Of a DNA stretch of 64,000 nucleotides, positions 6,017 through 60,100 are shown one piece after another (positions within the stretch are counted from its first letter, which is position 1; each line of letters begins with the position of its first letter). The stretch comes from Morinoia aosen (Eukaryota > Arthropoda > Malacostraca > Amphipoda > Talitridae), in contig CM059557.1 of the NCBI GenBank assembly GCA_030386875.1, forward strand, positions 54,700,514-54,764,513, written 5' to 3'. The position numbers were made by a program, and so were the translations under genes. The notes under the pieces are model-generated. The model was not told where the DNA came from. It saw nothing but the letters and a program-made list of their open reading frames with translations, and ran no database searches.

Positions 6017-6135
6017 TGAGGGGCGACCAGCATGAGCTCGGTATGGAAGAGGTTCCAGCGCATCAATAAGAAGGCCGCCAAATTCCAGTTCACAGCCTCC
6101 TTCCACGAGCTCGCGCTCCACCTCACTCCCAAATG
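6017..6135 (+). CDS. EHBP1: EHBP1 exon with start codon (C2 domain, N-terminus)
   Basis: Acceptor 'ttgcttcctcag' ends at 6016, followed by 15 untranslated bases and ATG at 6032. It encodes [18 protein letters not shown] then [17 protein letters not shown], closely matching the vertebrate EHBP1 N-terminus (MASVWKRLQRVGKHASKF..). The donor is AAATG|gtgagt at 6136. The exon ends two bases into the Trp codon, completed by G at 6814. This start is chosen because it aligns with the family N-terminus. Confidence 0.93.
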
Positions 6136-36100: not shown

Positions 36101-39100
36101 TCCTGCGAACACTGAGATATAAAAATGAACGGTCGTGCATTTGCGCATTCTATCATGGCACACCAGCACCTGTTCACACCCGGTCATGAGAGCAGGGTTC
36201 CACATTCCACAGTTAAGGTACTAAGGCGAAGTTGACGAAAATTGCCAATGTGGAAGAAAGGCAACAAAGGTACAAGAATAAAATTGATATACTAGATTTT
36301 AGATTATTCAATTAAGACAGTAAAATGCAATGTCATTTTATACTCCTGCTGCTCACACACTGGTTCTCTGGTAGGTTGGGGCACACAGGATTCAATTTTC
36401 TTATTTTCCCTAATATATTCTTAAAACGTTAGGATTAACAGCGCTATTTTTCTTGGACAAACATTCTGAATACCGATTTTCTCACTGAGATAAATATTTT
36501 CTCATGTGATGTCACCATTCTCGAGATCTGACATTCGCTGTGTTTGGGTTCCAAAATGACATAAGGTACCATTCAAACTGGTGAATAGAAACTTCCTAAG
36601 CGGTTCATGTTCATACTGTATTTGGGTTCCATCCTGATATCGATTACGATTTGTCACTTCTGATCACAAACGTCTAACGTAATTGTAGTTTTAAGTCCTA
36701 AGTCTTGAATTTTGTGTGTGAACCATTTCATATTTCCAGATGTCCCGTCACCAAAGACGAGGAGCCACGTCCGGCGGTCACCTCAATAGTGTATCAGGTA
36801 CTGGTTCTACCTTCTGCTCTCCTATCGTATCTTCACGTATGCTATAGCCTCAATTGCTTCAAATAATCGCTGCCTTAATTACGATTTGAGGATCACTAAA
36901 GCGAAAGCAGCATAACCGCTACCGGGTTTCGATAGAATGAAGGTTTGCGTATTGCCTAAATTGTTCTGGGTTTCTTGCATCATTGGTAGAGATTTCATGA
37001 GAAATTTTAACTTCATTTAATTAATGGCTTGCGCTTATAAACGTGTGTGATGACACGTGTCCAAACTTTCATTTCGTTGATGGTAACTTAATTTAAGAAG
37101 CATAAAATGTTTAATGGCTCCCAGTCTAAAGATTTAATGGCTTTCCTTTATACCCCGCCGATTTCTAGTAATTTCGGCATCTGTTTGCTTAGGGAATGAG
37201 TACTATGAAGACATCCAGTATGAGAAATTTGACTAAATTATCAAGTTGTGTCCTGTATATCTCAATACTCTGCACTGCTTATATACCGATATTTACTCCC
37301 AAGTATTTGAAGCTGCTAGCATCTGTGATGTCGCTAATGCTCGTTGTGTTTCGTGTTATTCGTATTTTTCTTCTTATTTACTTCAGGGAAAATATTGACG
37401 AACCAATGAGCCATGACAGTTCCGTCTACATCATATTTTGTTTGAAGTTTTCGTATTTTTCTGTCGTATGCCTAATTGAATTTCGTTCATTTGTCGTTAA
37501 CCAAAGTTGAGTAACGAGTTATGTGCTATGTGAAGGATTTTATCCACTGCTCTGTTTTTTCTGTCTAATTTTGCTTCGTCTTTTTTTGAAAAATGGTCAA
37601 CATTCCGAGAGCTAAGAAGCTCTTCCCACCTATTAGCTGTCGGGGCAGAAAGGAGTATACACGGCCTGCTCAATGTTCCTTTCTCTGTCATCAAGGAATA
37701 CTCGTCTAAATCTGAACTTTCAAGAACCTGCTAGAGAGCTACTTCCTCGTTGCTAAAGCCATTCTAATATGAAAAGATAATGCTCGTCAAATCGTACATC
37801 TGGCCGAAGCGAAGCGGAAGAATTCGCCTGAAAATGAAATGCATTTCCCCAACGATTTAATATTTTATTCTGTTATGCTGTTGCTTCCTTCTCTAGTGCG
37901 GGGCACAAGCTTGAGCTTGAGGTTCTTCTTCTATGGTAGCTTGCCCTTGTTGGTACCTTCCCTTGTTAATTTAAATACTGTATAGTGTTTCTGATGACTT
38001 ATTTTCGGGGTATTTCTTGGTTCTTCCCATGCAAAATTTTGTCCACTGCTTCACACTAGTGACTCTCCTATCTTTTCACTCAATATAAACTAAGCTTGTC
38101 GTTCAAAGGATTTTACTTAGCCCATTACTTCGTTCTACACTCTCCGGACGATCTTTCAGTTCTGATTCTGGTAACTGGTCTGTGGTACTTCTGCTCATAT
38201 CGAGCAATTTTCATTAACTGCTTATGGGTACTTCTGTAGGCCTCAGGGAATTTCTGGAAGCTTATGACTATTTGTTGTACATACTTACCGTCCTCCCTTC
38301 TCTGTTCATCATCATTTGCTCGTCCACTTCGTACACTGAAGAGCGGCGCTGACTCCGTCAAAACGAACACCTCTGGCGGCGACGGTGTAGCACATCTCGA
38401 AGACATCAAAGTTCCAGGGCTGCTGGACCTGTCGCCCGTGTCCCCCACGCAGGCACTCAATACCCGGTCTTCTGCTGCTAGCGGCCGCCATAACAAGGCT
38501 CGCCCCAGCTCTCCCTCAGACCCGCCTAGTACGGGAGGCTCGACTGCGGCGTCTCAAGCTTCCCTCCACAACGCCCGCTCCCCATCGCCGGCCTCCGACC
38601 TGACTTCCACGAAAGTTAGTCTGACGTCCCCCGGCGCTCTCCCCACTTCGTTCAATACGCCTCCCGTCACGCCGCTAGCTCCAGACCAACACTTGCAGCA
38701 AGACGAGGTGCATGACACCAGGTCCAAACTGCAGTCCCCCTCTGATGTTGTGTCTGCCGCAGCGCTGCTTGACCGCCTCAGGGATGAAGCTACCAGTCCT
38801 GCCGGCTCCAAGGTTGGACATCTTCACTTTCATTTGTTCTTCCATCCTCCCCCTCTCCTCTCTCCGCTCTAGCTGCATTCCGACCGAACGCGTGTGTATT
38901 TTCCCCCTTGTTTGTGCGTGTAATTTCAAATCATTATACCCTTGTAACTTTTATTTGTTCGCCTGTGTAATTTTCATTCGTTCGCGCGTGTAAATTTTAT
39001 TTGTTCGCGCGTGTAATTTTCATTGTTACGGGCGTGGAACTTCCATTTGTGACTCGCGTGTAACTCCCTCTGTTGCGTGCGTATAATTCTTGAGCTTAAT

Positions 39101-42100
39101 GTTTTTTAATTAATACTTTTTTTTGCTAATGAATTTTTTTATTTTCCTTGCAGTTCTGCTTTTAGCATTTTTCTCACCACCCATTCTGGTATTTCTTAGT
39201 ATTGTGTTTCTCCCTTGTGATTAATACCGTAGCAATATTTTCCAATACTTATTTTAATGCTGTCTGGATGCTTAACTTGCCTTGTTCTGCCTTTGGCCTG
39301 GTACACTGAAACTATTGTTTTTAGGTTATCATGTAGACCTGACGCTTTTAGAACGAAGGTTGGTTTAGTAATGGGCACACTTATTGATGTGCCCATGGTT
39401 AATTGCTCCAAAATTGCTACAGCTTTTCACAGAAGACGTAATGGCTTTTGTTACGTAGTTTGGTAAGCTTTACGATAGCTTTTCTCTGCTTTCTTTTTTT
39501 GTGGGAAAGCACAGCATGATGAATTAGCAATTGTCTTTTTCATGAGAGTTCTTCATACTTTGTCGTCTCTTTCTCTCTTTATTCACTCGTTGTCTTGCGA
39601 TTCTTCGCTGCTATCTTGGAAGAGACTCTTCTAACTTCTATGATCGTAAAGCTGTGCATAATTGGTCGATATTTTAATATATTCTGTTATTTTGAACTGC
39701 CTTTTTTAAATTCAGTTTCCCTTTGCTTGAGTAGTTTTTGAAGAAATGTACTTTCATTTTCTGGTTCTGCTCTTTCTACGCCATTGTATGATGTTCAATA
39801 ATTAATATTCTGCATACCTCTTAATGTGTGGTTTCATTCACGTGTATGAGTTTTGCTGTTTTTTATTTTTTTGTATCTTTACTTTCATTGTTAACGACGG
39901 TTAGTGCCCGGCCACTTGTGTTCCTGCCAGTGATGTCAATGTTACAGTTGATTCCCTCAGGGGGATACAACTATTGTATATATGGGAATTAGCACTCCCA
40001 GGGGAAAAATGTGAGAGTCCAAGCTGAGAGCTAGGTTGGCCTTTTCTTGTTGATATAAAACGTTTTTGTTATGTTAAGGACCATCTTTTCTCGGTTCACT
40101 GGTGTCCTGTTTTTTCAGCACCTTTCTTCTTCGATTTTGACCTTGTTTCATAATCTTTTTTCTCAGCTTACTGTCTCTTTCGCGCACCTTGGGCACAGAT
40201 TCTGCGTTCCTTCAACTCCACACTACATGGTGCCTACTTCCTTCCCCTTTGGATCGCCTTTGTGGCGGATAGGGAGGCTTAAACTAACTAATAATCTAAT
40301 ATTGCAGTTGATATATGTGTTTGGTTTCCCTTGGAGTTTTGACTTCGGTGCGGCGTCTCATGGGCTGCATTTTCATCATTGCCAGAAGATTTGAGGGCTC
40401 AAGCCGGATCCACAAACAATACTGGCGTATCTGTTGTACGACGTTGAACTTGAATCGCGACGTCGATATGCACCAACTTCTTCGTTTTGCATTTTTTGGA
40501 TGTAAATATTTGCCGGGAACTAGTATTTCATTCTTTATTTTTAACCAGAAATGGAATGAAGCTCTACGGAAAAACGAAAAAATGGTAGGAGAATGGGAAA
40601 TACCCTGAGGTACTCACTGATTAGTCTAAGAAGAACTATAGTTTTTACTCTGGAGCTGACGATTGGTTAATTGTTCCTGGCCTTCCTTATCATGTATACC
40701 TTCCTGCCGCCACATTGGGTGTTGCCAGATTTGCATTTTTTCTCGTCGAAATCGTTCAAGTTCGAGCACTCCTCTAGTAAAATTTGTCCATAAACACCAG
40801 TTAGCATTTGACATCCCTGTTAGGTTAACAAATGCTAGAAGGTCACTGCGATAAATTTTTCTATAAAAATGACCGAAATCGCGAATTTAGCCGAAGAAAA
40901 GACCAATCTGGCGTCTCTGGGTCCACCTATGCACAGAGTAAAATTGTGAGAATGTGATCAGCATTGACCGGCAAGCAAATCAGTAGTCTCAGGCTTCAAA
41001 CTCATAACATTCAGCGGTGTTGACTCTAGGCCCACTGTTCTACGTACTTTCTTTTGAAATAGGTTTTTTAAATGTCAAAACAATGGATCCGATCTCTTTA
41101 AATTTAAATTGTTATGACATCCTTGGTCTACGTCTAGAATGTTCATTCCAGCTGCTTTTCGGCTCTTTATGTTGTTCTTTATTTAACGAGATATAGTGTT
41201 TAATGCATTGAATTACGCTCTTATCTCTTAACGCTTTCGGCTATTTCGACCCTCATCGCCGGCTTTCATTTAGTGATCCGGATATTTTCGTGTTGTGATT
41301 CGTGTCTTTGGTTGCATTTCTCCTATGAATTGCATTTCTCCGTGCAGTTAAACTATTCACTAGGAATATAATTGAACAAAAATTAGGTTGTATTAAATTT
41401 CATGGTGATACATCGGAAGAAGATTTTTCCTCTCAATTTAGTAAATTTTTACAGATAGGTGATTTTAGTAGCATTTATATTTTATATAGTATTTCGAAAT
41501 ATATTATTGCCTCATTTTACATATTCATGTGGTTTGAAGCTATCCACGTTCATCAGATTGTATAAAACGTATGAGTATGTATCCTATTAAATAGCCAAAA
41601 TACATTAATTTGAGGCTGTTGCGGATGTTCAAAGGCAGGACACGTTACACGAATAGTGGACGGAATTTGAAACACTTTATGTGGTGGGAGCGCTGCAGCA
41701 CGCAGCGTGACTTCCAATATTCATCTAAATAGACTTGAAATTACCCTGCCAGCTGTGTCGCTTTTGAAAATTTGGCCAACTTTTCTAACGCGTAAATGGC
41801 CTACGGCTATTATCTGAGCTCAAACCTGTGTCTTCTGAAGAGAAACGAAACGCGACTCGCGCCACTTCTGGCTTGGTCAAGTTGTAAGATCTCAATGTAT
41901 TTTGTCAGAATATAACTACGTTTTTTTATTAACCTTACGAGCTTTACACATATTTTCACACACTCATTTTGAAATTTTGAACTTGGTGGTGTTCCGGATG
42001 TCTACTTCATAGTTGAATGACTTCCGTATTGTGTTCCTGTGTTCGAAAACGCCTTGTGCATAGATTTCACTTATTCCTTTGTCCATAATAGATGGACTCT

Positions 42101-45100
42101 TCTCTTTCTGTGAAAGCATTTTGTAGTTGAAACGAGACCTCAAACTAACTACCACACCATACCCAGTCTGACTTTTTCGCCGCCTGCATGCATGTTTTTC
42201 GCCGCCCAAGTTATGAAATCGCTTTGGCGACGAAAAACATGCATGCTCCGGCGAAAAAGTTTGACTGGGTACCTCCGTATTGTGTTCATTATTTAAAAGC
42301 CATTACCTTTATTCAGGCCGAGGCGTCAGTGACTTTTCCCCAACTGCAGCTTGCATCACGTGTGTTGTGATCCAGTGTGCGTACACTAATCGCTTGTCTA
42401 ATTACAGCTCGCTCTCTCACTTGAATTGCATAGTGTTATTCTTACGCTAAGGCTTTTTTTGGGCTCTGTACGAGGAAGAATTATGTGCTCGATTTTTTGT
42501 TATGACAACAGTGCTTATTTTTATGTGATTATTGATTATTGGCCTTAATATCACAGGTTTGTTTTAATGCTCAAGAGGAAACGATTTGAGCCACAATCGT
42601 ACGATATTATTGTTCACTGTTAGGATTTTTATTCCTTTTGACTTTGCTTCTTATTTGTGCAAGTATGGGTCTTCTTATAAATTTGCTTGAAGTGGTGCGC
42701 ACGTTTTCCTCTTTCTTATATTTTTCGGTTATGTTCTACACAGTCTTGCTATGCTTAATTTCTACTATATTTGATTCTGGGTTTAGTAACGTCCTTTGAC
42801 TGCAGATTTTTTCCCTCGTTGTGTAGATGTCTGCAGGAAGTGCTAGTGTCGCACCGCTCTCAGCTGCAGGACGCGACGGGTCTGAGACTCCGCACGCTTC
42901 TCTCGCAGTGCGACCAAAAACCTTGAAGAACAAGTTCAGACCCGCTTTTGGCAAATCGAACGACAAGAAACATGCACTTACATCGAAAAACAAACCTGAG
43001 GAATTCTCGTCGAACGAATCTTTGTCGAGTCCTATGTCTAAGTTCAAGAATGATGGTCAAGAAAAACACCTTCCGTACTCGAAGCTCAGCAGCCGCTCTA
43101 AAGGCTTGAGCAGACTTTGGAAAAGAACGGCTGCGTCTTTGGAAGATTCCGATGCTGAGCTTGAATCAAAATCTGGAGGTCAGGCAAAAGTGAAAACGAA
43201 ATCGCCCAAAGCCGTTAAGACTAACGGTGAATCCAAAGAAAAGAAACGTAACAAAGAGAAAGACAAACAAAATGTTGGTGAAGCGAAAGTAGAAAAAATA
43301 TCTGACAAGTCTCCGCCGCTTATCAGCGAGACAAAGATCGTCACAACCGGGAAAAGAACGGTTGAGTCGTCCGCCGGTTCTGTCGCTAAGAAGAAACGAA
43401 AAGGCCCGTCGTTGTCGCGCTTGGTTGGTTTCAAAATAAAGCTCGCTGCGAATCCTAACGCACCAGTGCTTGATCAGCGTATAGCGAGTGCTGGAGCCGT
43501 GGTGGCGGATAATGCTCCTCTGCAGATGGATGTCGCTCCCGTTGAATTAGCACCAGAGGCCGCGAATAAAATAACGAATGAATCTTCCGTTACCACGCAG
43601 AAAAACGTCAAAAATGACGCTACTAATCGTGAAGCTTTAGATTTCACGTACTGTGCAATCCCGAGAAGGAGACCCGATAAATCTAAAACACTTGGAGCAG
43701 GTGCTTTGTTTGAATTACATCAATTCGGGGGTCAAGAGAGTCTTGCCTTCAAAAGTACTACACTGCCTCCTACTTTTGAAGCGTCTTGGGCCAAGTTTGA
43801 TGAAAACACTGGGCCAGAGGCGCTACCCGAGACAACAGGACTTGATTCAAAGGGAGAAGTTTATGAAGGTTCGTATCAGCATCCTGATGATCGCCCTTCT
43901 AGTTGGGTCTCGTTTGATGACGAAGCGAATGTAAACGAGTTCAATGATGGTGAAACGGAATTAGAGCCTGACGACACTGAGGTAAGCATTTCTTCATCCC
44001 CGACTAATTCCTCGAACGTTACAGAAGTATCATTACAACTAGCTACCAACGCGGACGAAAGTTCTTCCAAAGAATTTTTCACACTTCCCGAGACTGAGAA
44101 AACATTTGAGAAAGAATGGTTCGAAGATGACGCAGTTTTTTCCGATGATTCACCGAAAGCGGTAAATAAACACGACGATAAAGCTATGGGTGGTTTCAAA
44201 ATTTACGCGAGTGCTATACCTTTCGGTGACAGTTATAGCAGTACAAAGCCTGCTGAAGAGTCTCGTTTCTCATCCAACCCTGACACATCGTGTCCAATGG
44301 TCAAGGTTGAGACCAGTTCAGGCTTGTCGTCGAAGTTTGTTACTCCTCTTTCTACAACCGTGGTAACCGGAAGTGACTCATTCCACTCTAATGGGACTCA
44401 AAAACTGGATACGTGTTCCCAGTCAAGTAGGTCCTCAAATATTGATGATTCTTCTGAATTTTTGAGAAATGAAGCGAAGTCTTCACTTGCAGTAGGGACT
44501 CCTGAGGCTTACGCGAGCGGTGATGAAGAAAAAACTGACGCGGCCATTCAGCAGCAATTTGCATACTCGCCTCTCGAGTGTGAAAGTCCCTTAGTTATTG
44601 AAGGCCCTGCCCAGGAAATGATGTCTCGACCTATGAGGTTCGACCGCATTTTCCAATTGAACACTTCATTGGAATCCTCTAAAGTTGAGTTAGGTGCGCA
44701 GCTATGTTTGTGTAGTCGAAGCTGCGCTGTGAGCTCCTCGCATATCTTACTGGATACCTACTTAGATATGCCTCCATTAAAAAATGAGGGTTATTTCAGC
44801 CTCATCAAGTTCGAAAAGAATGTCCTGAAAGTGGCTGGTTGCACCAGGAATTATGCGATGATTCGATGCAACGGTGACACAGCGCACCGTCAACAAGACG
44901 ATTCATCAGGTTACGTTGAAGTTGGCACCGTAACGAGCGTGGCGGCTGACTCTTTGAGTGCAGAAGACTCATGGCATAATATTAAAATCTTCAATACAAT
45001 TTCGGCGTTAACATCAGCGGGCTTACGTCCTCCAGAAACTGGTCTGAGTGGTGACTTTTCCCAGTACACATTCGAATCAAACGCAAGTTGTGATCATGGT

Positions 45101-48100
45101 GGGTTAATTCCTGATGTCGGCACTACCTGCGACCACGTTGCGGACAGTGAGGAAAAAGCTGTCTCCCCAGTAAAGGAGTCATTCATGGCAACGTTCTCAA
45201 AGCTCTGCAACCCGTCTATTAAAGGAGGCTCGAAAGGCTTGTTCAGCGTTACAGTTGGATCTGACGCCACGAATAGGTCGAGTGATCTCGATGAAGACTT
45301 CCGAGGTCAAAATTTCACATCAGTTGCAGAAATGGACAAGTTCGCCTCGCCTTCCATCTTCAGCTGGACGAGAAACGCTTACAAGAATAAAAATGAAGAT
45401 ACTCGCTTAACATTCCGCCCTTTACCTACCATAGGAGAGCATGATGCGAATGAAGAAGACCCAAAAGACAGCTCTGCTGATAGAGAAACTGTGTTAGACT
45501 TCAGGCCTGACGGTGGGACATTTAAGGACATATTTTCATCCAACACTGCACTTAACGAAGATGTAATTTGTTCAACAGTTTCTTTCCCTAAGAGGGAGAC
45601 ATGCGTTTTGATCGATTTTTTCAGTGAAGAAGATAGCAATGACGATCAAGATGGCATTACATCTTTTACTGTAGTGAACTGGACTTCTGAAATTGCGGCT
45701 CCTTCTGAGGTAGTTGCGGCTCCTTCTGAGGTAGTTGCGGCTCCTTCTGAGGTAGTTGCGGCTCCTTCTGAGGTAGTTGCGGCTCCTTCTGAGGTAGTTG
45801 CGGCTCCTTCTGAGGTAGTTGCGGCTCCTTCTGAGGTAGTTGCGGCTCCTTCTGAGGTAGTTGCGGCTCCTTCTGAGGTAGTTGCGGCTCCTTCGGAAGT
45901 AGTACTCACGAAAGAGATGTCAGCGCAATCAGAAGTTTCGGTGCTAGCAGGAGTGTTGCTTCCGCCTGAAAGTTCTGTGTCGCCGGAAGTTTCAGTGCCG
46001 ACACAAGTTTCAGTGCCGACACAAGTTTCAGTGCTGACACAAGTTTCAGTGCCGACACAAGTTTCAGTGCCGACACAAGTTTCGGTGCCGACACAAGTTT
46101 CGGTGCCGACACAAGTTTCGGTGCCGACACAAGTTTCGGTGCCGACAGAAGTTTCGGTGCCGACAGAAGTTTCGGTGCCGACAGAAGTTTCGGTGCCGAC
46201 AGAAGTTTCGGTGCCGACAGAAGTTTTGGTGCCGACAGAAGTTTTGGTGCCGACAGAAGTTTTGGTGCCGACAGAAGTTTTGGTGCCGACAGAAGTTTTG
46301 GTGCCGACAGAAGTTTTGGTGCCGACAGAAGTTGTTTCGGTGCCGACAGAAGTTGTTTCGGTGCCGACAGAAGTTATTTCGGTGCCGACAGAAGTTGTTT
46401 CGGTGCCGACAGAAGTTGTTTCGGTGCCGACGGAAGTTGTTTCGGTGCCGACGGAAGTTGTTTCGGTGCCGACGGAAGCTGTTTCGGTGCCGACGGAAGC
46501 TGTTTCGGTGCCGACGGAAGCTGTTTCGGTGCCGACGGAAGCTGTTTCGGTGCCGACGGAAGCTGTTTCGGTGCCGACGGAAGCTGTTTCGGTGCCGACG
46601 GAAGCTGTTTCGGTGCCGACGGAAGCTGTTTCGGTGCCGACGGAAGCTGTTTCGGTGCCGACGGAAGCTGTTTCGGTGCCGACGGAAGCTGTTTCGGTGC
46701 CGACGGAAGCTGTTTCGGTGCCGACGGAGGCTGTTTCGGTGCCGACGGAGGCTGTTTCGGTGCCGACGGAGGCTGTTTCGGTGCCGACGGAGGCTGTTTC
46801 GGTGCCGACGGAGGCTGTTTCGGTGCCGACGGAGGCTGTTTCGGTGCCGACGGAAGCTGTTTCGGTGCCGACGGAAGCTGTTTCGGTGCCGACGGAAGCT
46901 GTTTCGGTGCGGACAGAAGCTGCAGTGTCACCAAAAATGTCCGGATCTTCAAAAGTACCTCAGTCCGATGTATATATTTGCGGTAGTGAAGGTATTACTC
47001 CAAGCTGTGTTAAGGATTCGTTATCATCCAACGCGTCATCATTCTATAGCGTTCGTCCTGAAAATATTGCTTCTACAAATTTAAGGGCAGATTTTACTCC
47101 CGTGGCTCCGGCCCAAACTTCCGCGGATATTCCTGCCAAAACTGCTTCTAATTTTCCTGGATCAGTGCAGATTCCGTGTGAATCGCCTATTCCATCTGGA
47201 ATCTCTTCCATTTTTAATTTTAATACTTGCCCGATTTTGTCGGAAGACATTGTTGGTGGTGCTGAGGCTGATCTGTCACCAAAGGTTTCTGAGTTTTTTT
47301 CAGACAGCAAGTTTGGCTCTTCACAGCATCCTAGAGCTCTGAGAAGTCCTAGCCTCTTACTTGATCTCATGAGATCAAGCCAGTTAGGATCTTCTGAGAG
47401 TAATCATGGGAATAATTTTTCGCTATCTGTGCCCGGTACTGTCGTTCCTGATGAAAACCTATTTGACATTCCATTGATGTCTGATGCTGATGATAAAATA
47501 TTTTATCCCTCTCAAAATGCCTTCAGTCTTTCGCCGGATACGAGGGCATCAGTTTCATCACTTTTCAGTCTAAATATTGAAGATAATTCGAGATTTGTTT
47601 TGCCGGAGCGACAAGGAATTGACTTTTTTGGCTTTGCGCACGCTGATTCTGCTGAGTCCTGGAATGCCTCTCATTCACAGGCTTCTCACGTTAACAATGA
47701 AACACCTCTTTTAAACGTCAATAGTGCATCCACTCGTGCACTGTTGACAAATTCCTCACTCTTGCAAACCTCTTCTGATAATTTTGGCAGTGAATACGTG
47801 CAACTGCCTGCTGTGTTACGTGATTCTATGCAGTTTGCATCTTTACAAATTGAACAAACTCCCATGGAACATCTTCAAGAAGTGGTTGACCCTCTTCATA
47901 ACACTACGGACCTCTGTTGCAACCAGTTCTTGGTAGAAACCATGGATGCAACTCCTCCGGTTAGCGGCACTGTAAGAGAGGACGACAGAGCTAAGTTCAT
48001 CTGGAGAACAAGCGAAAACCGTACTTATTCTGCTTCTTCGTGTACAAATGACGTTTGCGCGGAAGAAAATAGAAGCCAAAATGCAGATAACCAAGGAACG

Positions 48101-51100
48101 AGTTCTAAATTCAAAGTAGTCACCATCAACGTCCAACGTGATGATGGTTTGGAGAAAACTTTCGACTGGGACAGAATGAATTTGAAATCAAGTAGTGAGA
48201 TGAGCGACGACACCAACGACAGCGATTTAGAAGACATCCCAATATGTTCTCTCGCAGAAGAGGAAATGCTTAGGGCAATAATGTATGCTTCGTCTAGCGA
48301 GTCTGTTCAGGAGTTTGTCACTACGTTTGTTATCAATGAGAAAGAGTGTTATTTACCAGAACGAATTCAGTACAAGTGGAAATTAATTGACTTCTACTTA
48401 GTGTATCCTTGCAAACAAGAAACAATTACTTCTCTAGAGAAAGAAGGCATTCTTTCTTTTAGTTGTGGGTGCACTGCGTCTTGTATTATTGTTCCTGACA
48501 CCTTTTTTGAAGTGGAAACGGAACATGCTCCCAAAGTACTCCAGGGATTAACTACAAAACCGACCGGGGAGGAGCTTGCAGAAGACAGTGTGCTACTTGA
48601 CGCACCGTACCCGTTTTTGAAAGATACTCAAATACCGCTTTCGATTCTCAAATGTGAGCAATCGTCCACCTCTGAGAAGCAGAAACAAATCCCTCGTAGC
48701 CTTCGTACACCAATAGGCAGACCGCCCATCGCTTCGAAATCTGGTAACAAGGGATCCAACGATCCTCCATTGAGAAAAATAAACAGCAGTTTGACGGTGA
48801 AGAAAGATTCTCCGACTACTCCTCAAAATCGCCCCCTACCAGGAGATGAGAGGCGTCGAAAAGCGCGAGGTCGAGCTAAAACTCAGTCTCGTGCACCTTC
48901 TTTAATTGCTTCTCGAAGCCTTTCTCGGCCACGTCCAGATTCTGCTCGCGACCATCAGGGCGATGAAACGCAGCCTCTCGACGACCATCACAGGAAATGG
49001 CTGTCGTGCAGTGATGATTTAGACGCGCATGCTTTGTCGATTAACAACGAAGCTGTGTTGGATTATTGGTCAGAGGTTTTGAAATCCCGACGTATACACT
49101 TTGGGGTGCCTTCTATGACCACATTCACTGCTTCTCAAGAGAGTTTGCCTCAATATAACTCCGATTTGACGTTGCCATCTTCTTCACAAAGCTACGAAAC
49201 GTGGTGCAAGAATTTGAAAAAATCCTCCTTAATGAGCCCTGGTCTACGAGGTGCGACGTTGCCGGCGAGACCGACTTTCCGCAGAGAAAAGTCTTTTGCG
49301 TCATTTTCTACGCCTACTACTTCCCTTGTTCGGCCTCAGTTTCGCCGTGAACAAACGTTTTCTTCAATAAAAGCTACGAAAGATCAGAAATTGATAGCTG
49401 TGAAACTCCCCACAGCGATTGAGAAGTGTAAGTCACGTAGCAGCGTACGACTTTACAATGGGAACCTATTCACGATTCCATCTAGTTCTGCCATTGAAGA
49501 GGCGGTTCCTACTCCTATTTATACAGCAAAAACTTCAGAAGTTTTCATATCATCTATTTCTCGTCTTCAGCGAATGCTTCGCCCTGGACGCTTGTTTGAA
49601 GACATCAAAGAAGACCACGAGAAGATATGTTCCTTGGACGTATGTTCCGTGCCTAAATACTCGAGTCCCTCTTTGAATACTTTTGATACTCAACAGCCCA
49701 ATACTCGCCTCTTCCACGATTTGATAGTTAGCGATGAATGTTTCTTCTTACGGTCTTCTCTCGAATCAATGTGTAGCGATAATTTTGACAAAATTGAAGA
49801 AGGCGTTGAAAATGACTTGCTGGAGGATCTTGAAGAAATGTCTGGTGATGAAGACTTCTATGAAGATTTGGTGCACCCGGACGTAACATGCTGTGATGTT
49901 GAAGTTCTCATTAACAGCTCGGAGGAGGCGGAGTTGCATCAAGACGCTGCCGCTACGGCCATTTCTGTAGCGACCCAATCGTCTAGCAAAGACACGAATC
50001 CCAAATCTTTTTCGAATCGTTCGAAAAAGTTAATGAAGGAAATTCGACAAACTAGCAGGGAATTGTACAGATACCTATTTCAAGAGCACAAGAGTGAACA
50101 CCAGTGTACCGAAAAATCTGCAGAACACAGTGCTCGTAGTAATTCTCCATCGGCATCGAAAACTAGCATTGCTTCGAAAACGAGTGCTGCCTCGAAAGTG
50201 AGTGCTGCCTCGAAAGTGAGTGCTGCCTCGAAAGTGAGTGCTGTCTCGAAAGTGAGTGCTGTCTCGAAAGTGAGTGCTGCCTCGAAAGTGAGTGCTGCCT
50301 CGAAAGTGAGTGCTGCCTCGAAAGTGAGTGCTGCCTCGAAAGTGAGTGCTGCCTCGAAAGTGAGTGCTGCCTCGAAAGTGAGTGCTGCCTCGAAAGTGAG
50401 TGCTGCCTCGAAAGTGAGTGCTGCCTCGAAAGTGAGTGCTGCCTCGAAAGTGAGTGCTGCCTCGAAAGTGAGTGCTGCCTCGAAAGCTAGTGCTGCCTCG
50501 AAAGCTAGTGCTGCCTCGAAATCGAATGTTGCAATAAAAGCGAGTGCTGCCTTGAAAACGAGTGCAGGAGCCCCTGAAAAGAACCCTGTTTCGAAAGCTG
50601 GTGCTGTTTCAAGAACTATCAAAACTTCAGAAATGAGCCTAACTTCACATTCTAGGGGGTCCCAACTGAGTGCTGTTTCGAAAGTAAATACATCTACGAA
50701 GGCAAACATTTCAAATACAGGAACTTCTTTATACCCACACCAGTCGAAAATTTGCTCTATGTCTTTTGTACCGAGTACAGATACTACTACATGTGCTGAA
50801 CAGGCACTTGATACTGAGATTGCCTCATCAAGCAAGAATGTTTGCACTACTGAATCGAGTACACAGAGTAAAAGCACGGGAAGGTATGGTAATATTACTG
50901 CTAAGATTCGAGGTAAAAAGAACAACTCTCGGAATGAATCAGAAGTGAAACTCTTGAACGATAACGTTAAATTAAAAAATTGTGAACCAACTTCTGATAC
51001 TGCTCTTCATTACAATCTGATGACAAAGTCATCTGCGCAAAGGCAGAAAAGGAATCCTGACTCTATAAAAACGTCAACGTTTTCCGTAACAAAAGGGAAT

Positions 51101-54100
51101 GCTACGTTAACTCAGTGTGCTCCGAGGAGCAATAAAAGCTTATCTCCGGTTTCTAAAACATCTCGTGCTTCTTCCATCTCTGTTGGTTCGTCTACAGAAC
51201 ACGATTCGACATCACAAGGAAAGTTATCTATTCAATTAGGTAAAAATCCCGAGAGTACTCCTACGTCTTTAATGGATACTGCGCCAAGTGAAAGTGCTCA
51301 CGAGTCAACAAAGCCGTCCGTAATGCATTCATCTGTACAAAAAAAAACTCCGATGAAAGTCAGCCTACCCGAGTGTGATGGTATGGAAGATGGGATGGTA
51401 AAATCCTTGCAGGTTACTGGAAAGGAAGTTTTTTCTAGCATGCCTGGGAAACTGGTGCGAATTGGTGGTGATCTTTTTGCCAATAAGGAGAGCTGCTTGG
51501 CTCATAGACTTGAGGGGAAAGAATTAACTTCGATGAATAATGAAACAATTACTAACTCTCAGTGCGATCTAGTTGCTCCTGTAGAATTATGCGCACGCTT
51601 ACCAGAAGGAATTCGTAATGTCTCAGTTGTTCTCTCTAACGGGTCTTGCGATCAAACATTGACCAAAGAATCTTCGCAGATTGGTCCTGGAACCTCAGAA
51701 CCTTGTGGATGCAACCCGACGGCACAGTCTTCTTTGGAGGAAGTAATTCCTCGGTTGACTGAAGTGCCCATTTTGTCGGTGCAAGCTCAACGTGGAGGGG
51801 AGGATTTAGGTAAGGAACTCGTGGCTGACCAAGATGTTGCAGTGTCAGTTTGTGGTGGTAATCATAATCCTGTTCTCGAGCAATTGTTTGATGCTCGTGT
51901 TGCACCGCCAATCGAAAAACCCTCAAATCAATTTTCTGAAAATGAAAATATCTTTCCTTCTGGAGAACAAAAGTTCTTATTTCTTGATGAACGTTCTAAA
52001 AATAATAATAATAATAATGAAATCGATTCATGTTTTCCATCAGGTGCAAAAGAAACTGATAAAGCCGTGAGGACTGAACCTGTTGAGAGGAACGTAGTTG
52101 GATACAATAGCGTAAACCTTGAATCTGAGAATGATCAATCCGTTATGACTTCCTCAACCATAGAAAATATGATGGAGTTACAATTAAAAACAGTAAATAT
52201 CAGTACTAAAGAGGTTTCATCAGATAATGGTGAATCAGTGTCTCTAGAGCTAGACGCATCGGAAAAAAATTCCGATTCTGATCTACCCGAAGATTTTTCG
52301 TCAACGGCAGCTTCAGAAGAGTTGCCTGCGAAACTCAACATTCGTCGCTTCTCGAGTTTCTCAAAGAAAGATGTTCTACGGGTGCTTGGTGTGGAAGACT
52401 CTGAAAGTAAAGAGCATTCCTCGTCAGATGTCCCTCCACGTGGTAATGAAATGACTACAGATAAGTATTTCTTGGATCAGACTACCGTCGAGTTTGGAGT
52501 GGATGCTTTGGAAGAGGGTGTGAATGCAGACTTGGACCTAACTCACGTCTGTACTTCGGGAACCAGTATGGAAAAAGCAATGGATACGAATATAACAAAT
52601 AATGTTATTGATTCTGATAGTGATGTTTTGCAAGGCACGCATCAAAGTGTACATCGATGCAAAGCTACCCCAGTAAGTTTTTACCTAGATCCTCTAAGAA
52701 AACACACAGTGGATACCATCAGTAACAGAACACTTGAGACCACAGAGGACTCGGCTAACACCCTAGGTATAGGGAAACTCGTTTCTTCTCCTTGCCATAT
52801 AACTGCAAAGGAAACTCATTCCACGAGATCTTTTGCAGCACAACAAGAAACATCACACCCTTCTTCCAACCTTGAATCATTCAACACTGCTCAGACTCAA
52901 GATGTAATCCTAACGGAACATTCCAATCATGCAATAGATGCTACTCCTAGCGCTGTGGCTGCTTCGTCACTTTGTCTTACGTCAGGGAAAATAAATTCAC
53001 TTCAGCCTTCGGACTGCGACGAGTCTGAGGTAACAACTTCCAAAAACCGTACAGATAATTTGAATCGCGACGTTTTTGATTGTGCGCTTTTTCGAAATGA
53101 TGTTACTTCACCACCTATCTCATCAATTAAGGTTACATCTTTAGAAAACAAGTCCATCGTAAAAATTCCTCGAAGTTTAGAGACGATCCCTGAAAGGACA
53201 TCATTAAACACAGCAGTATCCGAAACTGATGGAAATTCATTTGCCTCGACTTCTCTTGTAAATCCTAACGCTCAAGACACAACGACCAAAAATTCAAATT
53301 TCGATGCTCTGGAAGCTTCGTGTGTGAGTACACGGGATTCGAACGAGAGCTCAAGCACGAACAATTCTTTGACGTCAACCATAGCGGAGACCACTGCAGG
53401 TGTGAATTCGACCTTTTTACCCACTACAAATGTGCCTGGTGATGTAACGTCTACGTCACCTTTCAACCAAGCGGTAATGGACGAAGCTATGCGCCTGTGT
53501 TGTGACCGAGAAGAAGCTGAAGAAGAAGCCAGCGTGTGGAGCTTCGTTGATATTGCAAATCTGGATCTGGTGAATGAACCTGACGACACAGTCTCGGCTG
53601 TGCACTGGCTCTTCTCGCAGGTGCCTAGTTTTTTCGAGTGGACCTTTGAAATTCTCTAACAGGTGTTCTGTGTTCGGCGCAATTTTTGAGGCCCGCGGAT
53701 GTCACATTTTGAAGCTTCCAGCTAACCAGCACTATTTTTATCGGTGCCTTTTTCTAACTACACGTGTGTTTTTTATACTTAACATGTGTTACTAGAGTGT
53801 TATTGATTTTTTTTTACAAATTGCGACTCTTTGCTAACCATAATATTGTTAGACACAAGAATGTTTATCCGTGTTGCGGAATTTTTGAGTGGCTTCAATT
53901 GCTCTTCTGTCTACCTCCAACTACATTAATAATATCGTTTCAGTGTACATACTTGTCTAAAAGGACACCCGTCTATTATGGATTCATCACCGTTTGTAGT
54001 TTTTAAGACATATTTCTTAGATTAAGACAATAATATCCCTATTTGGGGATCCCCAGAATATTCTGAAGCTATTTTATAGTTAAGTTATCGCCGTTTTGCT

Positions 54101-57100
54101 AAATAAGGCATAACCTCTCTCCAGGGCTCAAGTTTAAGGTTGAATAATTTATTTCTTGGATTTGTTTGGAATCCACGTTACATCTCCGTTCCGAACTTAG
54201 GTTTTATGTACTTATACTGTTCGTTTAGAGCACATTAGGTTAATATGTGTTGCGTGTTTCAGAGTAGTTAGATTCTAAGCAAATTATTTACGCATGTCTA
54301 ACGCAATTGCTTTTTTTGCATAGAATTATTACTTTGTTTGTGTTGTTTACCTTAATTAGCATGCCTACGCCTATGCTCACACGCTTGCTGTTTCTTGCTG
54401 TTTCCTTACTTTTACTCGTTGCAAATTTAGAGTGTCTTATCTAACACGTTTCATTTTTTCAAGTTTCTTGTGTTGTGTACAAACCAAATCATAATTCTAA
54501 GCAGAATATTGCGACTAGAAATACGAACTATTTCAAATGAAATCCACTTGAGTATTTTTCTGTTTTGGCTCCCGTTATAATGTATAAGTAATGTATTCTG
54601 CCTTTTAGTTTTATTTTTTCTGTATAAAATAAGTGTACATAGCTTGCGACTTTCTTGGAGATTACTTGCGGTCTTCGTCACATTTCAATTCATCGGTACT
54701 CGGATACTTAAGGTGCTGCTTTTGTAACATTGGGAATCGAAAGCAAAACAAGAGCGGTAAGTTCAATAAAACTGATAACCGCATGAAAATACTTACTCGG
54801 AAGTTAAGATTTGTAGCCGCCCCTCGTTCTGGAGGTCAGCGTAGTAAGATGAAACGTTTCTTATGGAATTTGAGAGTGGCCCACCATAGATTCAGTAACA
54901 TCCTTTTCTGGGCATGGCCTTGTCGTTCGACAGGTTTTACTTCCCGTAATCCAATCAAACATTAAATATAGCTTTTTTTGTTATTCTCACTGCATGTGAG
55001 AATTTAGCTTAGACGCTCAATGTTGTCTCAGTCATCGCTTACGGTACTTCTAGTGTCATCTTCCTGTATTTTTATTTTGCCTGAGTGAACTGAGCGTCTT
55101 TTATTCATAATCATCTACAAATAGGGTGTTCAGAGATTGTACCTTTCAGAGGGATGCGCAGAAATGGGTGGTTCTTCAGCGCATCATGGGATATGTTGGA
55201 CACCTGTGCTACACTATGCTGATATTGATTTTCCCCGTCAATGTATCTTGGGGAAAATGAAGCTCTCCAGTGCTCGCCCTAGCAACTTACTACAGAATCA
55301 GCAGCGCTTGGCAGGAGTCTGATGCATGATTAGATACGTAGATTGTGGGATTGGATTCGTAGATTGTGGGATTAGATTCGTAGATTGTAGGATTTAATTC
55401 GTAGATTGTGGGATTAAATTTGTAAATTGTAGGATTAAATTCGTAGATTGTGGGATTAGATTCGTAGATTGTGGGATTAGATTCGTAGATTGTGGGATTA
55501 GATTCGTAGATTGTGGGATTAGATTCGTAGATTGTGGGATTAGATCCGTAGATTGTGGGATTAGATTCGTAGATTGTGGGATTAGATTCGTAGATTGTGG
55601 GATTAGATTCGTATATTGTGGGATTAGATTCGTAGATTGTGGGATTAGATTCGTAGATTGTGGGTTTAGATTCGTAAATTGTAGGATTAGATTCGTAGAT
55701 TGTGGGATTAGATTCGTAGATTGTGGGATTAGATTCGTAGATTGTGGGATTAGATTCGTAGATTGTGGGATTAGATTCGTAGATTGTGGGATTAGATTCG
55801 TAGATTGTGGGATTAGATTCGTAGATTGTGGGATTAGATTCGTAGATTGTGGGATTAGATTTGTAGATTGTGGGATTAGATTCGTAGATTGTGGGATTAG
55901 ATTTGTAGATTGTGGGATTAGATGTGTAGAGTGTGGGATTAGATTTGTAGATTGTGGGATTAGATTTGTAGATTGTGGGATTAGATGTGTAGAGTGTGGG
56001 ATTAGATTCGTAGATTGTGGGATTAGATTTTTAGATTGTGGGATTAGATTCGTAGATTGTGGGATTAGATTCGTAGATTGTGGGATTAGATTCGTAGATT
56101 GTGGGATTAGATTTGTAGATTGTGGGATTAGATTCGTAGAGTGTGGGATTAGATTTGTAGAGTGTGGGATTAGATTTGTAGAGTGTGGGATTAGATTTGT
56201 AGAGTGTGGGATTAGATTTGTAGAGTGTGGGATTAGATTTGTAGAGTGTGGGATTAGATTCGTAGAGTGTGGGATTAGATTCGTAGAGTGTGGGATTAGA
56301 TTCGTAGAGTGTGGGATTAGATTCGTAGATTGTGGGATTAGATTTGTAGATTGTGGGATTAGATTCGTAGATTGTGGGATTAGATTTGTAGATTGTGGGA
56401 TTAGATGTGTAGATTGTGGGATTAGATTCGTAGATTGTGGGATTAGATTTGTAGATTGTGGGATTAGATTCGTAGATTGTGGGATTAGATTCGTAGATTG
56501 TGGGATTAGATTCGTAGATTGTGGGATTAGATGTGTAGATTGTGGGATTAGATGTGTAGATTGTGGGATTAGATTCGTAGATTGTGGGATTAGGTTTGTA
56601 GATTGTGGGATTAGATGTGTAGATTGTGGGATTAGATGTGTAGATTGTGGGATTAGATTCGTAGATTGTGGGATTAGATTCGTAGATTGTGGGATTAGAT
56701 TCGTAGATTGTGGGATTAGATTTGTAGATTGTGGGATTAGATTCGTAGATTGTGGGATTAGATTCGTAGATTGTGGGATTAGATTTGTAGATTGTGGGAT
56801 TAGATGTGTAGATTGTGGGATTAGATTCGTAGATTGTGGGATTAGATTTGTAGTTAAATAGCCCTTATATTTCGTTGTTTACTTTTCTATCTCTCGTGGG
56901 GGAGGCCAGGGTACCGTGCTGCCGACCACCTTCATTAGTGTCTTCGTCTTTTATTGCGTATCCTTGTTTCTCTTTTCTCCTCATTGAGATGCTCACACCT
57001 TTTTTTTTTTACCAGTGTAGCGACTTGTCGATTGTCGTGCACAATTATTTGACTGTGGATAGTATAACTGCTTCTTCTCTTAGTGAATTCGGAGCGAATT

Positions 57101-60100
57101 TGCAGAAATTTATGATTTACTCGTAAATATTTGCTACAGAACTCAGTAAGTACACAGAGTGGAACAAGTTTTACACTTATTCGAAAAACATGAAGTCGCC
57201 TCTTTGTTCAATCAAATATCACCTCCAATCCCTCAACAGCTACAACTAAATTATCCCTCAAATTTGCGATCGTTCAACTTATTCGCCTCTCAAACTCTCG
57301 TAACACAGTCATTCCTCGAGTTATACATTATCTTATTCGAACCTTAACTTTACGGATAAAAATTATTATCGGTTATTCACAATTTAAATGAAGTGCCGTA
57401 TTGTATGAATAACCAAGACTAATTTTGACCCGTATGCGTTGAGGTTCATATAAGATGATGTATAACTCATGGATCCACCGCGTCTAACTGAGCTTTCGTT
57501 GCGCTCGGTGTGGCAGACCCGCAGCAGCTCCCGGCACGAGGAGCTGAAGGAAAGAGCGCGGGTGTTGCTGGAGGCGGCACGACGCGACGCTGCTGCCGCT
57601 GCGGACGAGGCCGGCGCTAGAGTGGGCCCTTACGAGCACTCGCTTTCAAAGGTGTCGTACCAGGCTTCCAGTGGGGAAGTATTCGTGGCGTTCGCTTGTG
57701 TTATAACAACCGTGTCTGGCCGTCCGTCAGAACATCCCTCTGGTTATTTGTGATCAGTTTGGGTTTACGTGTTTTGTTGAATTCCACCGTACGAATGCCT
57801 GCATTTTTGAGAGATCGCATTCACTAGCTCGAATGTAATTTTCATTTCTAACCACAGAATAAATTTGAATATAGTTTAGAGGAATCGGGAACCATTTCAG
57901 TTTGTATTTTCACAACCAGGTAATCTCACCACGAAGGTGAGATTACCTGATAGCAAAAATGCAAACTGAAATGGTTGCCAAAATTGACAGTAGCAGATAC
58001 AAGTGGCTATGTACGAGGCTTATTCAGAAAGTAAGTCTCCCTAAACCAAGAAAAAAATGATTCTATGGATAAACTATATTTCAGCAGGCACAGCGCACGT
58101 TGTGCCATGTTTCATTTAATCACCGCCAGAATTAGAACAATTGTCATACTGTGTCACTTTGACATGCTTTGCACGGAACATTCGTGGGATAGCAACATAT
58201 TCAGTGGGGATTCAGTGAAAGTCTTTAGGACACGTCATGCGTGTCATCTATCGCCTAGCATAGGTAACGACTCGCTTGTACTTCGAAATGTGTAATATCT
58301 CGCTGCTTGCGATACGACCCATCGATGGGTCATTTGTAAAATTTTAACAATCTTTTAAAATTAATGATATTTGATGGACCCAGTTAATGTTTGATATTTA
58401 TAAAATTGCTAACAACGCCCAAAGTTAAATTTGAATTTAGTATTGAGCTTTAGTTTAACCGATCGTAGTCAACGTGGTATACTTGTTGAAACATGACTAG
58501 GTTCATTCATGTACGTGTACGACTTACAGGAGGAAGAGGAGCGTCAGCTGACGCTGCGGGAGAGAGCGCGTCGCCTCATAGCGGAGGCCAAGCAGGGAGT
58601 TGTGTCCCCGCCCCGGGCCCTCGCTTCACCAGTGCGCCACGCCGCAGGTCTTTATACTTCGGAGTAATTTGAATATTTACTCGACCTGAGTGTACGCCAC
58701 ATGTCTTTATAGTTAGGAACCTTTCAAATATGTACTCGACGTGAGTGTTCACCGCAGGTCTTTATACTTGGAGTCATTTAAATATTTGTTCGACATGAGT
58801 GACTGCAGGTCTTGATACTTGGGAGTCATTCAAATACGTACTCAACCTAAGTGTACACCACTGGTCGTTATATTTAGGAAGCATTCAAATGTTCATTCGA
58901 CTTGAGTGTTCCAAAAGTTTGTTTTTATTGGCTAGTCTAGTGAGGAATTTGTTGCCCGTCTGGTGCTTTATTATTTTCGTAGTTCCTTTAGGATGTTTGT
59001 ATGTAGGCTACCATGCTATTACATTCTTCTGAAGGAGATGGGCACGTTGGCTTTTTTGTGAACAAAATCCTCAAGTTTGTGCTTCTCCAGCAAATTTTTA
59101 CTATTAACACCTCTCGGCATCTGGCAATTCTGCTAGGTTGTCAGACGAATTCTCCTGCATATTCGATGTTTTTGTCTTCGTTGCAGAAAATTGTGTGACC
59201 GTTTATTTCATTGGCAGAAGTGAGTCTTCGTGTGACAAAATGTTGTGTAATTCATATAACTCTGTAATTTTAATGTAGTTAGATGCGCTTGTTAGAAATT
59301 GTAAGCTAAGAGCATGGAACACATCAGGCAAAAGGTGGCAGCAGAATTTGGGACTCAAATCATGCAGATTCGACGTGAAAAAATAACTAGCAAAACAATG
59401 CAGGGGTACAATTTCAAAACTTTCCATAGCTCTCACACTTCGTTGCTGGGAAGTGGTAAGATTGTTTCAAAATTTGGAAATTTAAACTTATCCCTGGCTG
59501 CTTTTTTTGAAGAAGCGTTTCATTTTCATTGGCATAGCTTGTAATATTTAATGCAGACCTCGTTTACAGCTGAGAATGGCATTGAATCGCTGAGGATGGA
59601 CCCACCTGTGGTCACTGAAGGGATTTTCTTTATGCTGCTGACCGACCTACAGTAACTTATTCAGTTTTTTTTAGAAATACTTAATGAAAGCTAAATAAGG
59701 GCGCGGTACAGTTAATGTTTGCTGTTTTCAAAATTGCTCTCTATAATTGACTTTCATTTTGAATTGAATACTGAACTTTAGTTTAAACCATCTCAGGAAC
59801 CGTTTTAAATTCAATTTCTTGTTTCTAATTGCATTTTGTCGACTAAACTTCCTGCTCCTGATAGCATATTTTGTTGAGTAAGTTTCTTGTTTCTAATTCC
59901 ATTTCGCTGTATCTCCCCCTCAGGGGTATACAAATATTGTCTCTATGGGAATTAGCGCTCCCAGGGGAAAATGTGCGAGGGCCCGAGCTGAGAGTTAGGT
60001 AGGCCTTCTTTTTGTTGAAATAATTTTTTTATTATGTTAAGGATTATCTTTTTTCGGTTCACTGCTGTCATGTTTTTCAGCACCTTCTACTTTCTTCTTC

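Follow-up and report, generated by a model that had tools for sequence, protein, structure and literature searches.

EHBP1 is an adaptor of Rab8/10 and EHD proteins that consists of NT-C2, CH and bMERB domains, and its paralogue EHBP1L1, which likewise carries C2, CH and bMERB domains, has its long region located before the CH domain. In the sections available to us of the work on EHBP1L1, these domains are accompanied by a proline-rich region (residues 442–595) that recruits CD2AP/CIN85 (PMC9986712), and in those of the work on human EHBP1 the association of bMERB with CH has a dissociation constant of 1.2 µM and blocks actin binding until Rab8 binds (PMC7442826). The closest described system in logic appears to be that of the giant exons of ankyrin-G and ankyrin-B (ANK3 and ANK2), in which a very long optional in-frame exon likewise lies between the folded parts of a scaffold; a 7.8-kb exon of ankyrin-G is used in part or as a whole by in-frame splicing, giving forms of 270 and 480 kDa (PMC5422562, excerpt). 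In this study, we describe a 64,000-nucleotide stretch of the genome of the amphipod Morinoia aosen (GenBank assembly GCA_030386875.1, contig CM059557.1, positions 54,700,514–54,764,513; referred to as the window, to which all coordinates refer), in which the gene for EHBP1 extends on the plus strand from 6032 past the window end and a single giant open reading frame (ORF) lies between the exons for its CH and bMERB domains.

The best explanation of this ORF, to which we assign a probability of about 0.7, is that it is an optional giant exon of EHBP1 that would provide a docking strip for the clathrin adaptor AP-2 and a longer tether between CH and bMERB. As in the ankyrins, the exon is very long, in frame and phase-neutral; the ankyrins differ in gene and pathway, no sequence relation to them is claimed, and the isoforms of the exon in the window are predicted from sequence. 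Giant-exon scaffolds are already known as a class, whereas no description of a giant exon in EHBP1 was found in the open-licence literature.

The giant ORF is coding. It extends from 42827 to 53656 (3,610 codons) and is closed by a TAA at 53657–53659, and on the upstream side it is limited by a TAG whose AG is that of the splice acceptor itself, which bears out the preliminary description of a single frame of this length that opens exactly at a splice acceptor. With 577 codons masked as repeat, the 3,020 non-repeat codons contain no stop, compared with three non-repeat stretches in which every one of the five other frames has 21–99 stops per stretch, and when the non-repeat sequence was simulated 200 times with a first-order Markov model the longest open run in any frame was at most 222 codons. 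The chi-square for codon position, calculated in 34 segments of 600 bp along the ORF with the repeat arrays included, ranges from 11 to 246, compared with 71 mostly intronic segments that average 5.4 and reach 16.9 at most; 33 of the 34 lie above this highest value (the exception is the value of 11 at 49201), and the highest values are those over the repeat arrays. The bias fades at both expected exon ends, at the 3' end near 53.6 kb. Bias is seen at codon positions one and two, while the third has the composition of introns (a GC content at third positions, GC3, of 0.385, with an intron GC content of 0.386); it is therefore the protein that has been maintained, and the strong codon preference of constitutive exons is absent. 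A Pfam search of the ORF returned no family even at E ≤ 1, including the stonin homology and mu-homology domains, and Rfam (gathering threshold) and tRNA searches of the whole window gave no match. The encoded insert is serine-rich and acidic, with a net charge of −121 in its non-repeat part, a composition from which it is probably disordered, and it bears in-frame repeat arrays, as had been described.

A sequence match to a crayfish gene model is the principal reason to regard the ORF as an exon of EHBP1. A search with the C2 exon yielded 44 EHBP1 proteins of 1,102–1,359 residues, 16 of which represent decapod clusters from four species, the decapod EHBP1s being the nearest relatives. Among the 44, a single model, OTU49_007928 of Cherax quadricarinatus (P0004, annotated as 'partial', 1,257 residues), contains a W..F[DE][DE] or F(K/R).YAS pattern. 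In this model, an extension of 653 residues follows straight after the counterpart of the exon that precedes the giant ORF in the window (exon A), and its first residue is not methionine. The extension aligns with ORF residues 1–950 with a Smith–Waterman score of 103, where the maxima were 100 in 300 shuffles of the Cherax piece and 92 in 300 shuffles of the ORF part; BLASTP matches it to ORF residues 359–494 with an E value of 0.001, and tblastn against the whole window, with composition correction off, gives 8.7e-5. Three landmarks occur in the same order in the ORF and in the extension, namely SWAKF(D/E)(D/E) at residues 321 and 345, WVSF(D/E)D at 360 and 541, and FK(I/V)YAS..PFGD at 457 and 607, respectively, and the first ~490 residues of the ORF are thus like the Cherax model at the same junction. 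Exon A and the exon that precedes the Cherax extension match weakly overall and have VPGLLDLSP in common. Because a relative's model joins like sequence to the same upstream exon, the ORF is very probably an exon of EHBP1 and no chance frame, and a nested gene is improbable. The preliminary description had put EHBP1 proteins at roughly 1,100–1,500 residues without such an insert; the lengths agree with those found here, but the Cherax model carries the insert motifs, and judging from it such an insert exists in more than one genome. The published Cherax genome annotation combined homology, de novo and RNA evidence, according to the available part of its description (PMC10106460); OTU49_007928 may come from that annotation.

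The splice sites are consistent with an exon that can be included or skipped. The acceptor before 42827, TTTTTTCCCTCGTTGTGTAG/ATGTCT (the slash marks the splice site), is strong: its 16-base tract is 0.88 pyrimidine, compared with a 95th percentile of 0.75 for the AGs in 9000–22000, it is one of three among the 94 YAGs in 38850–42900 with a pyrimidine fraction of at least 0.875, and the preceding 15 bases are free of AG. The flanking junctions, at the ...GSK end of exon A (38812) and at the next exon (57517), are both in phase 0, as had been claimed, and the frame is therefore kept on either skipping or inclusion. Both of the phase-0 donors proposed for the 3' end lie where they had been placed: GATCTG/GTGAATGA, with its GT at 53570, scores 2.6 and ranks 29th among the GTs of the ORF, and TCGCAG/GTGCCTAG, with its GT at 53621, scores 1.9 and ranks 38th (scores from a standard weight table). 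By comparison, the clear EHBP1 junctions of the same gene score from about −0.6 to 6.2, and the donor of exon A scores 0.25.

The choice between the two donors is informed by the decapod gene models, in which the junction before the next constitutive exon (the RPSS exon) is alternatively spliced. Among the 16 decapod clusters, the RPSS exon is preceded by exon A in seven, by the exon before exon A in five, by a further exon, exon B, in three and by the Cherax extension in one. Exon B encodes 163–173 residues in Panulirus, Macrobrachium and Procambarus (P0003, P0005 and P0017) and has the conserved tail LLLTK. In an end-anchored gapped comparison of the last 40 residues of exon B with the ORF, residue 3598, the end given by donor 53621, was the best of 3,571 positions with a score of 17.0; the next-best position is close to it at 15.3, and the end at donor 53570 scores −7.3. 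Without gaps, the predicted end ranked 4, 5, 12, 9, 80 and 295 among the 3,571 positions for the last 10, 13, 15, 20, 25 and 30 residues, respectively. The tail match lends moderate support to donor 53621, which we favour over 53570 with moderate confidence, and to this extent the earlier proposal of two possible donors is refined. No strong phase-0 acceptor was found near a 165-codon 3' piece; three inside the ORF would leave 959, 1,350 and 1,427 codons.

The N-terminal part of the insert carries two W..F[DE][DE] motifs, the starts of which are separated by 39 residues and which are predicted to dock on the α-ear of AP-2. WxxF and WVxF motifs are listed as binding AP-2 in a table entry of PMC8806629, and the AP-2 ligands of this type, the stonins, NECAP 1 and synaptojanin-170, likewise present WxxF with acidic residues in a disordered stretch. 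Both motifs in the ORF combine WxxF with acidic residues and are kept in the relative. When the non-repeat ORF of the window was shuffled 5,000 times, two W..F[DE][DE] motifs were reached twice, and 10,000 shuffles of the Cherax piece never reached two. The insert differs from these ligands in that the ORF has no stonin or NECAP domain in Pfam and its AP-2 binding is predicted, and it differs from EHBP1L1 in that it follows the CH domain and is poor in PxxP (four occurrences, against a shuffled mean of 8.7). YxxΦ motifs are borderline (14 against 8.9, reached in 52 of 1,000 shuffles) and support no claim.

Several observations weigh against an optional giant exon of EHBP1. The giant exon is known here from genomic sequence and from the gene model of a relative, which is partial and is the sole one among the 44 proteins with the insert motifs; a matched homologue exists for residues up to ~494 only, with none found beyond, and a search for annotated giant EHBP1 proteins (2,475–7,875 residues) gave six candidates, none at E ≤ 0.01. 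Its GC3 of 0.385 compares with 0.802 in 577 codons of conserved EHBP1 blocks (6032–63965), a low value that agrees with a rarely included exon and, taken alone, equally with a separate gene. Both donors at its end are middling in score. The ORF was not recovered at E ≤ 100 with a hidden Markov model of the exon B tail, and whole exon B compares with the ORF at shuffle level (equally high scores came from 90, 107 and 82 of 200 shuffles); the idea that exon B is the 3' end of the giant exon was not adopted for this last reason. The W..F[DE][DE] pattern was picked after viewing the sequences, so that its shuffle counts are not clean probabilities; FxDxF, DPF/NPF, clathrin box, dileucine, LIR, SxIP and WxxL motifs are not enriched in the ORF and serve as the basis of no claim. 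A further search of ORF residues 1–960 against 5.8 billion proteins gave none of 2,136 scored candidates at E ≤ 0.001, in a length range from about 1,985 residues that excluded the Cherax protein of 1,257 residues.

An exon that is real but used in part, with the first 385 codons spliced through GT 43982 (or through donors in the 18-bp array) and the remainder rarely or never translated, is unlikely, although no donor of the ORF scores better than GT 43982, which is in phase 0, the clear likeness to Cherax is confined to the first ~494 residues, giant lengths are absent among the annotated EHBP1s that were searched, and the ankyrin-G exon, by the same excerpt (PMC5422562), offers a precedent for partial use. 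Beyond the internal donor, the stop-free, codon-position-biased frame continues for another 3,100 codons, the Cherax model carries on beyond the 385-residue mark as far as the FKVYAS block, and some exon-end match is seen at residue 3598. An independent, single-exon-like gene nested in an EHBP1 intron, from the ATG at 42827 to the TAA at 53657, is still more improbable. The frame does open with ATG, its GC3 is unlike that of the flanking exons, and an AATAAA at 54765 and TATA-like words upstream could be read as its signals, but such words are expected by chance in an AT-rich intron, the acceptor abuts the ATG directly, the unspliced context has T at −3, and in Cherax the counterpart continues directly from exon A and has a residue other than methionine at its start. 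A chance or decayed frame lengthened by in-frame repeats can be dismissed, since, although 577 codons are masked as repeat and repeats can open frames (as in the intronic array at 55328–56853), it is contradicted by the 3,020 open non-repeat codons with stops in every other frame, the simulations, the codon-position bias along the ORF and the Cherax counterpart.

With an optional giant exon of EHBP1 as the preferred explanation, the isoforms and their behaviour can be outlined from the sequence. If the exon is skipped, the product would be an ordinary EHBP1 with some 1,200 residues; full inclusion in mRNA and use over the whole length would give about 4,700–4,900 residues, about four times longer, and use of GT 43982 would give a possible intermediate form with a 385-residue insert, similar to the partial use in ankyrin-G. 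The preliminary proposal of an optional giant exon stands in its coding frame, its phase-neutral position and its join to exon A in Cherax, and is refined by the internal donor and the AP-2-type motifs; the tissue specificity proposed with it is a hypothesis. The insert would act as a docking strip for the clathrin adaptor, on which the Rab8/10- and actin-binding EHBP1 could be held at, or passed on from, the coated membrane. It would also stretch the CH–bMERB tether, at present about 490–650 residues long (489–654 in four decapod models), to about 4,090–4,250, which would lower the effective concentration of the two domains by 17- to 42-fold and may weaken their autoinhibitory contact, the one released by Rab8. 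A simple Gaussian chain model gives, for the addition of 3,598 residues, a change in effective concentration from roughly 330 to 14 µM, an estimate and not a measurement, and the open fraction estimated with the human dissociation constant rises from about 0.4% to about 8%. It is a tentative and rather doubtful extension of this outline that decapods evolved a giant EHBP1 in which one exon has three uses (skipped, 385 or 3,598 codons), so that a Rab8-gated adaptor between endosomes and actin became a partly unlocked, string-like scaffold on AP-2, which would be an independent invertebrate counterpart of the giant ankyrins within the endocytic recycling pathway.

The features of the locus are collected in Table 1. 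EHBP1 exons were placed by tblastn with four decapod EHBP1s and one annelid EHBP1 as queries, and this placement confirms that the conserved flanking gene is EHBP1 and that the giant exon lies at a phase-neutral position between its CH and bMERB ends. The first exons (6032–8082), which include an NT-C2 domain with an EHBP1-type N-terminus, are 73–86% identical to decapod EHBP1s. One CH domain is located after C2, as in EHBP1, and the solved structures nearest to its exon are those of EHBP1 (PDB entries 2d89, E = 3.9e-16, and 6zsh, E = 8.4e-16). Several linker exons lie between CH and bMERB, and of the bMERB domain, which is cut by the window end, the first 36 residues are present, with 69–72% identity to decapods. 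In a tree, the window sequence falls among four decapods on a long branch, and its placement is not firm.

Table 1. Positions in the window of the features of the EHBP1 locus; residue numbers are those of the giant ORF.
Feature	Positions	Strand	Details
EHBP1 first exons	6032–8747	+	Start-codon exon 6032–6135; NT-C2 exons 6814–7021 and 7907–8082; DEDMQS exon to 8747; tblastn with decapod EHBP1s, GT-AG ends
CH domain, two exons	24961–27179	+	24961–25100 (5' end not placed) and about 27003–27179; tblastn, PDB 2d89 and 6zsh
Exon A (VPGLLDLSP...SPAGSK), just before the giant exon	38390–38812	+	5' end not placed; donor AAG/GTTGGA, phase 0
Giant exon (very probable)	42827–53620	+	3,598 codons, phase 0 at both ends; open frame, coding bias, Cherax counterpart, acceptor, end-anchored tail match
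WAKFDE motif, predicted AP-2 α-ear type (WxxF-acidic)	43787–43804	+	Residues 321–326; Cherax WAKFED
WVSFDD motif, WVxF type	43904–43921	+	Residues 360–365; Cherax WVSFED
Candidate internal donor TGAG/GTAAGC, phase 0	43982–43983	+	Best-scoring GT in 42827–54300; exon would end after 385 codons
FK(I/V)YAS..PFGD block	44195–44239	+	From residue 457; kept in Cherax as FKVYASVKPFGD
In-frame arrays	45693–46922	+	AAPSEVV, 21 bp (45693–45903); (V)SVPTE, 18 then 21 bp (46079–46922)
In-frame 18-bp array ASKVSA	50170–50565	+	Many copies with a phase-0 AAA/GTGAGT site
Putative giant-exon tail	53525–53620	+	End-anchored match to decapod exon B tails; donor CAG/GTGCCT
Next constitutive exon (RPSS exon)	57517–57621	+	Acceptor phase 0; 3' end uncertain
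Downstream exons	58530–63965	+	Exon from 58530; LQSF exon 62545–62856; bMERB start 63858–63965; tblastn

The NPF motif, which binds EHD proteins, has no occurrence in the giant ORF, and the linker exons of the window gene are placed incompletely. Among the 16 decapod EHBP1 clusters it is found in two, both from Panulirus, and the site reads NAF in the Macrobrachium and Procambarus models that cover that place; some decapods may have lost the ability to bind EHD proteins.

The window also contains repeats outside the gene features. Directly after the giant exon, a 1.5-kb intronic array of 73 copies of a 21-bp unit (55328–56853) is open on both strands (494 residues on the minus strand and 487 on the plus strand) and gives rise to false ORFs, and a 36-bp minisatellite at 1–574 is truncated by the window start. 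One interspersed family has fuller copies at 27952–28295, 39951–40303 and 59916–60275, which are 79–86% alike, and partial copies near 796, 7437, 23647, 26382 and 30249, and a second family occurs at 18624–18850, 23050–23279, 59619–59788 and 61286–61469. A 131-bp stretch is present at both 11066–11196 and 15198–15328 with 97.7% identity, as a recent duplicate.

In conclusion, the exon, if it is used, would have an unusual length for a coding exon of a trafficking adaptor, and among the relatives compared here only the partial Cherax model shows something similar. The locus also suggests that automatic gene models may end too early within giant exons. A link between EHBP1 and clathrin adaptors is on record in the fly, where Ehbp1 antagonises AP-1 according to the available part of PMC11549480. 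The locus would offer a natural experiment on how tether length affects intramolecular autoinhibition, as well as on how a Rab8/10–actin adaptor may be coupled to clathrin adaptors.

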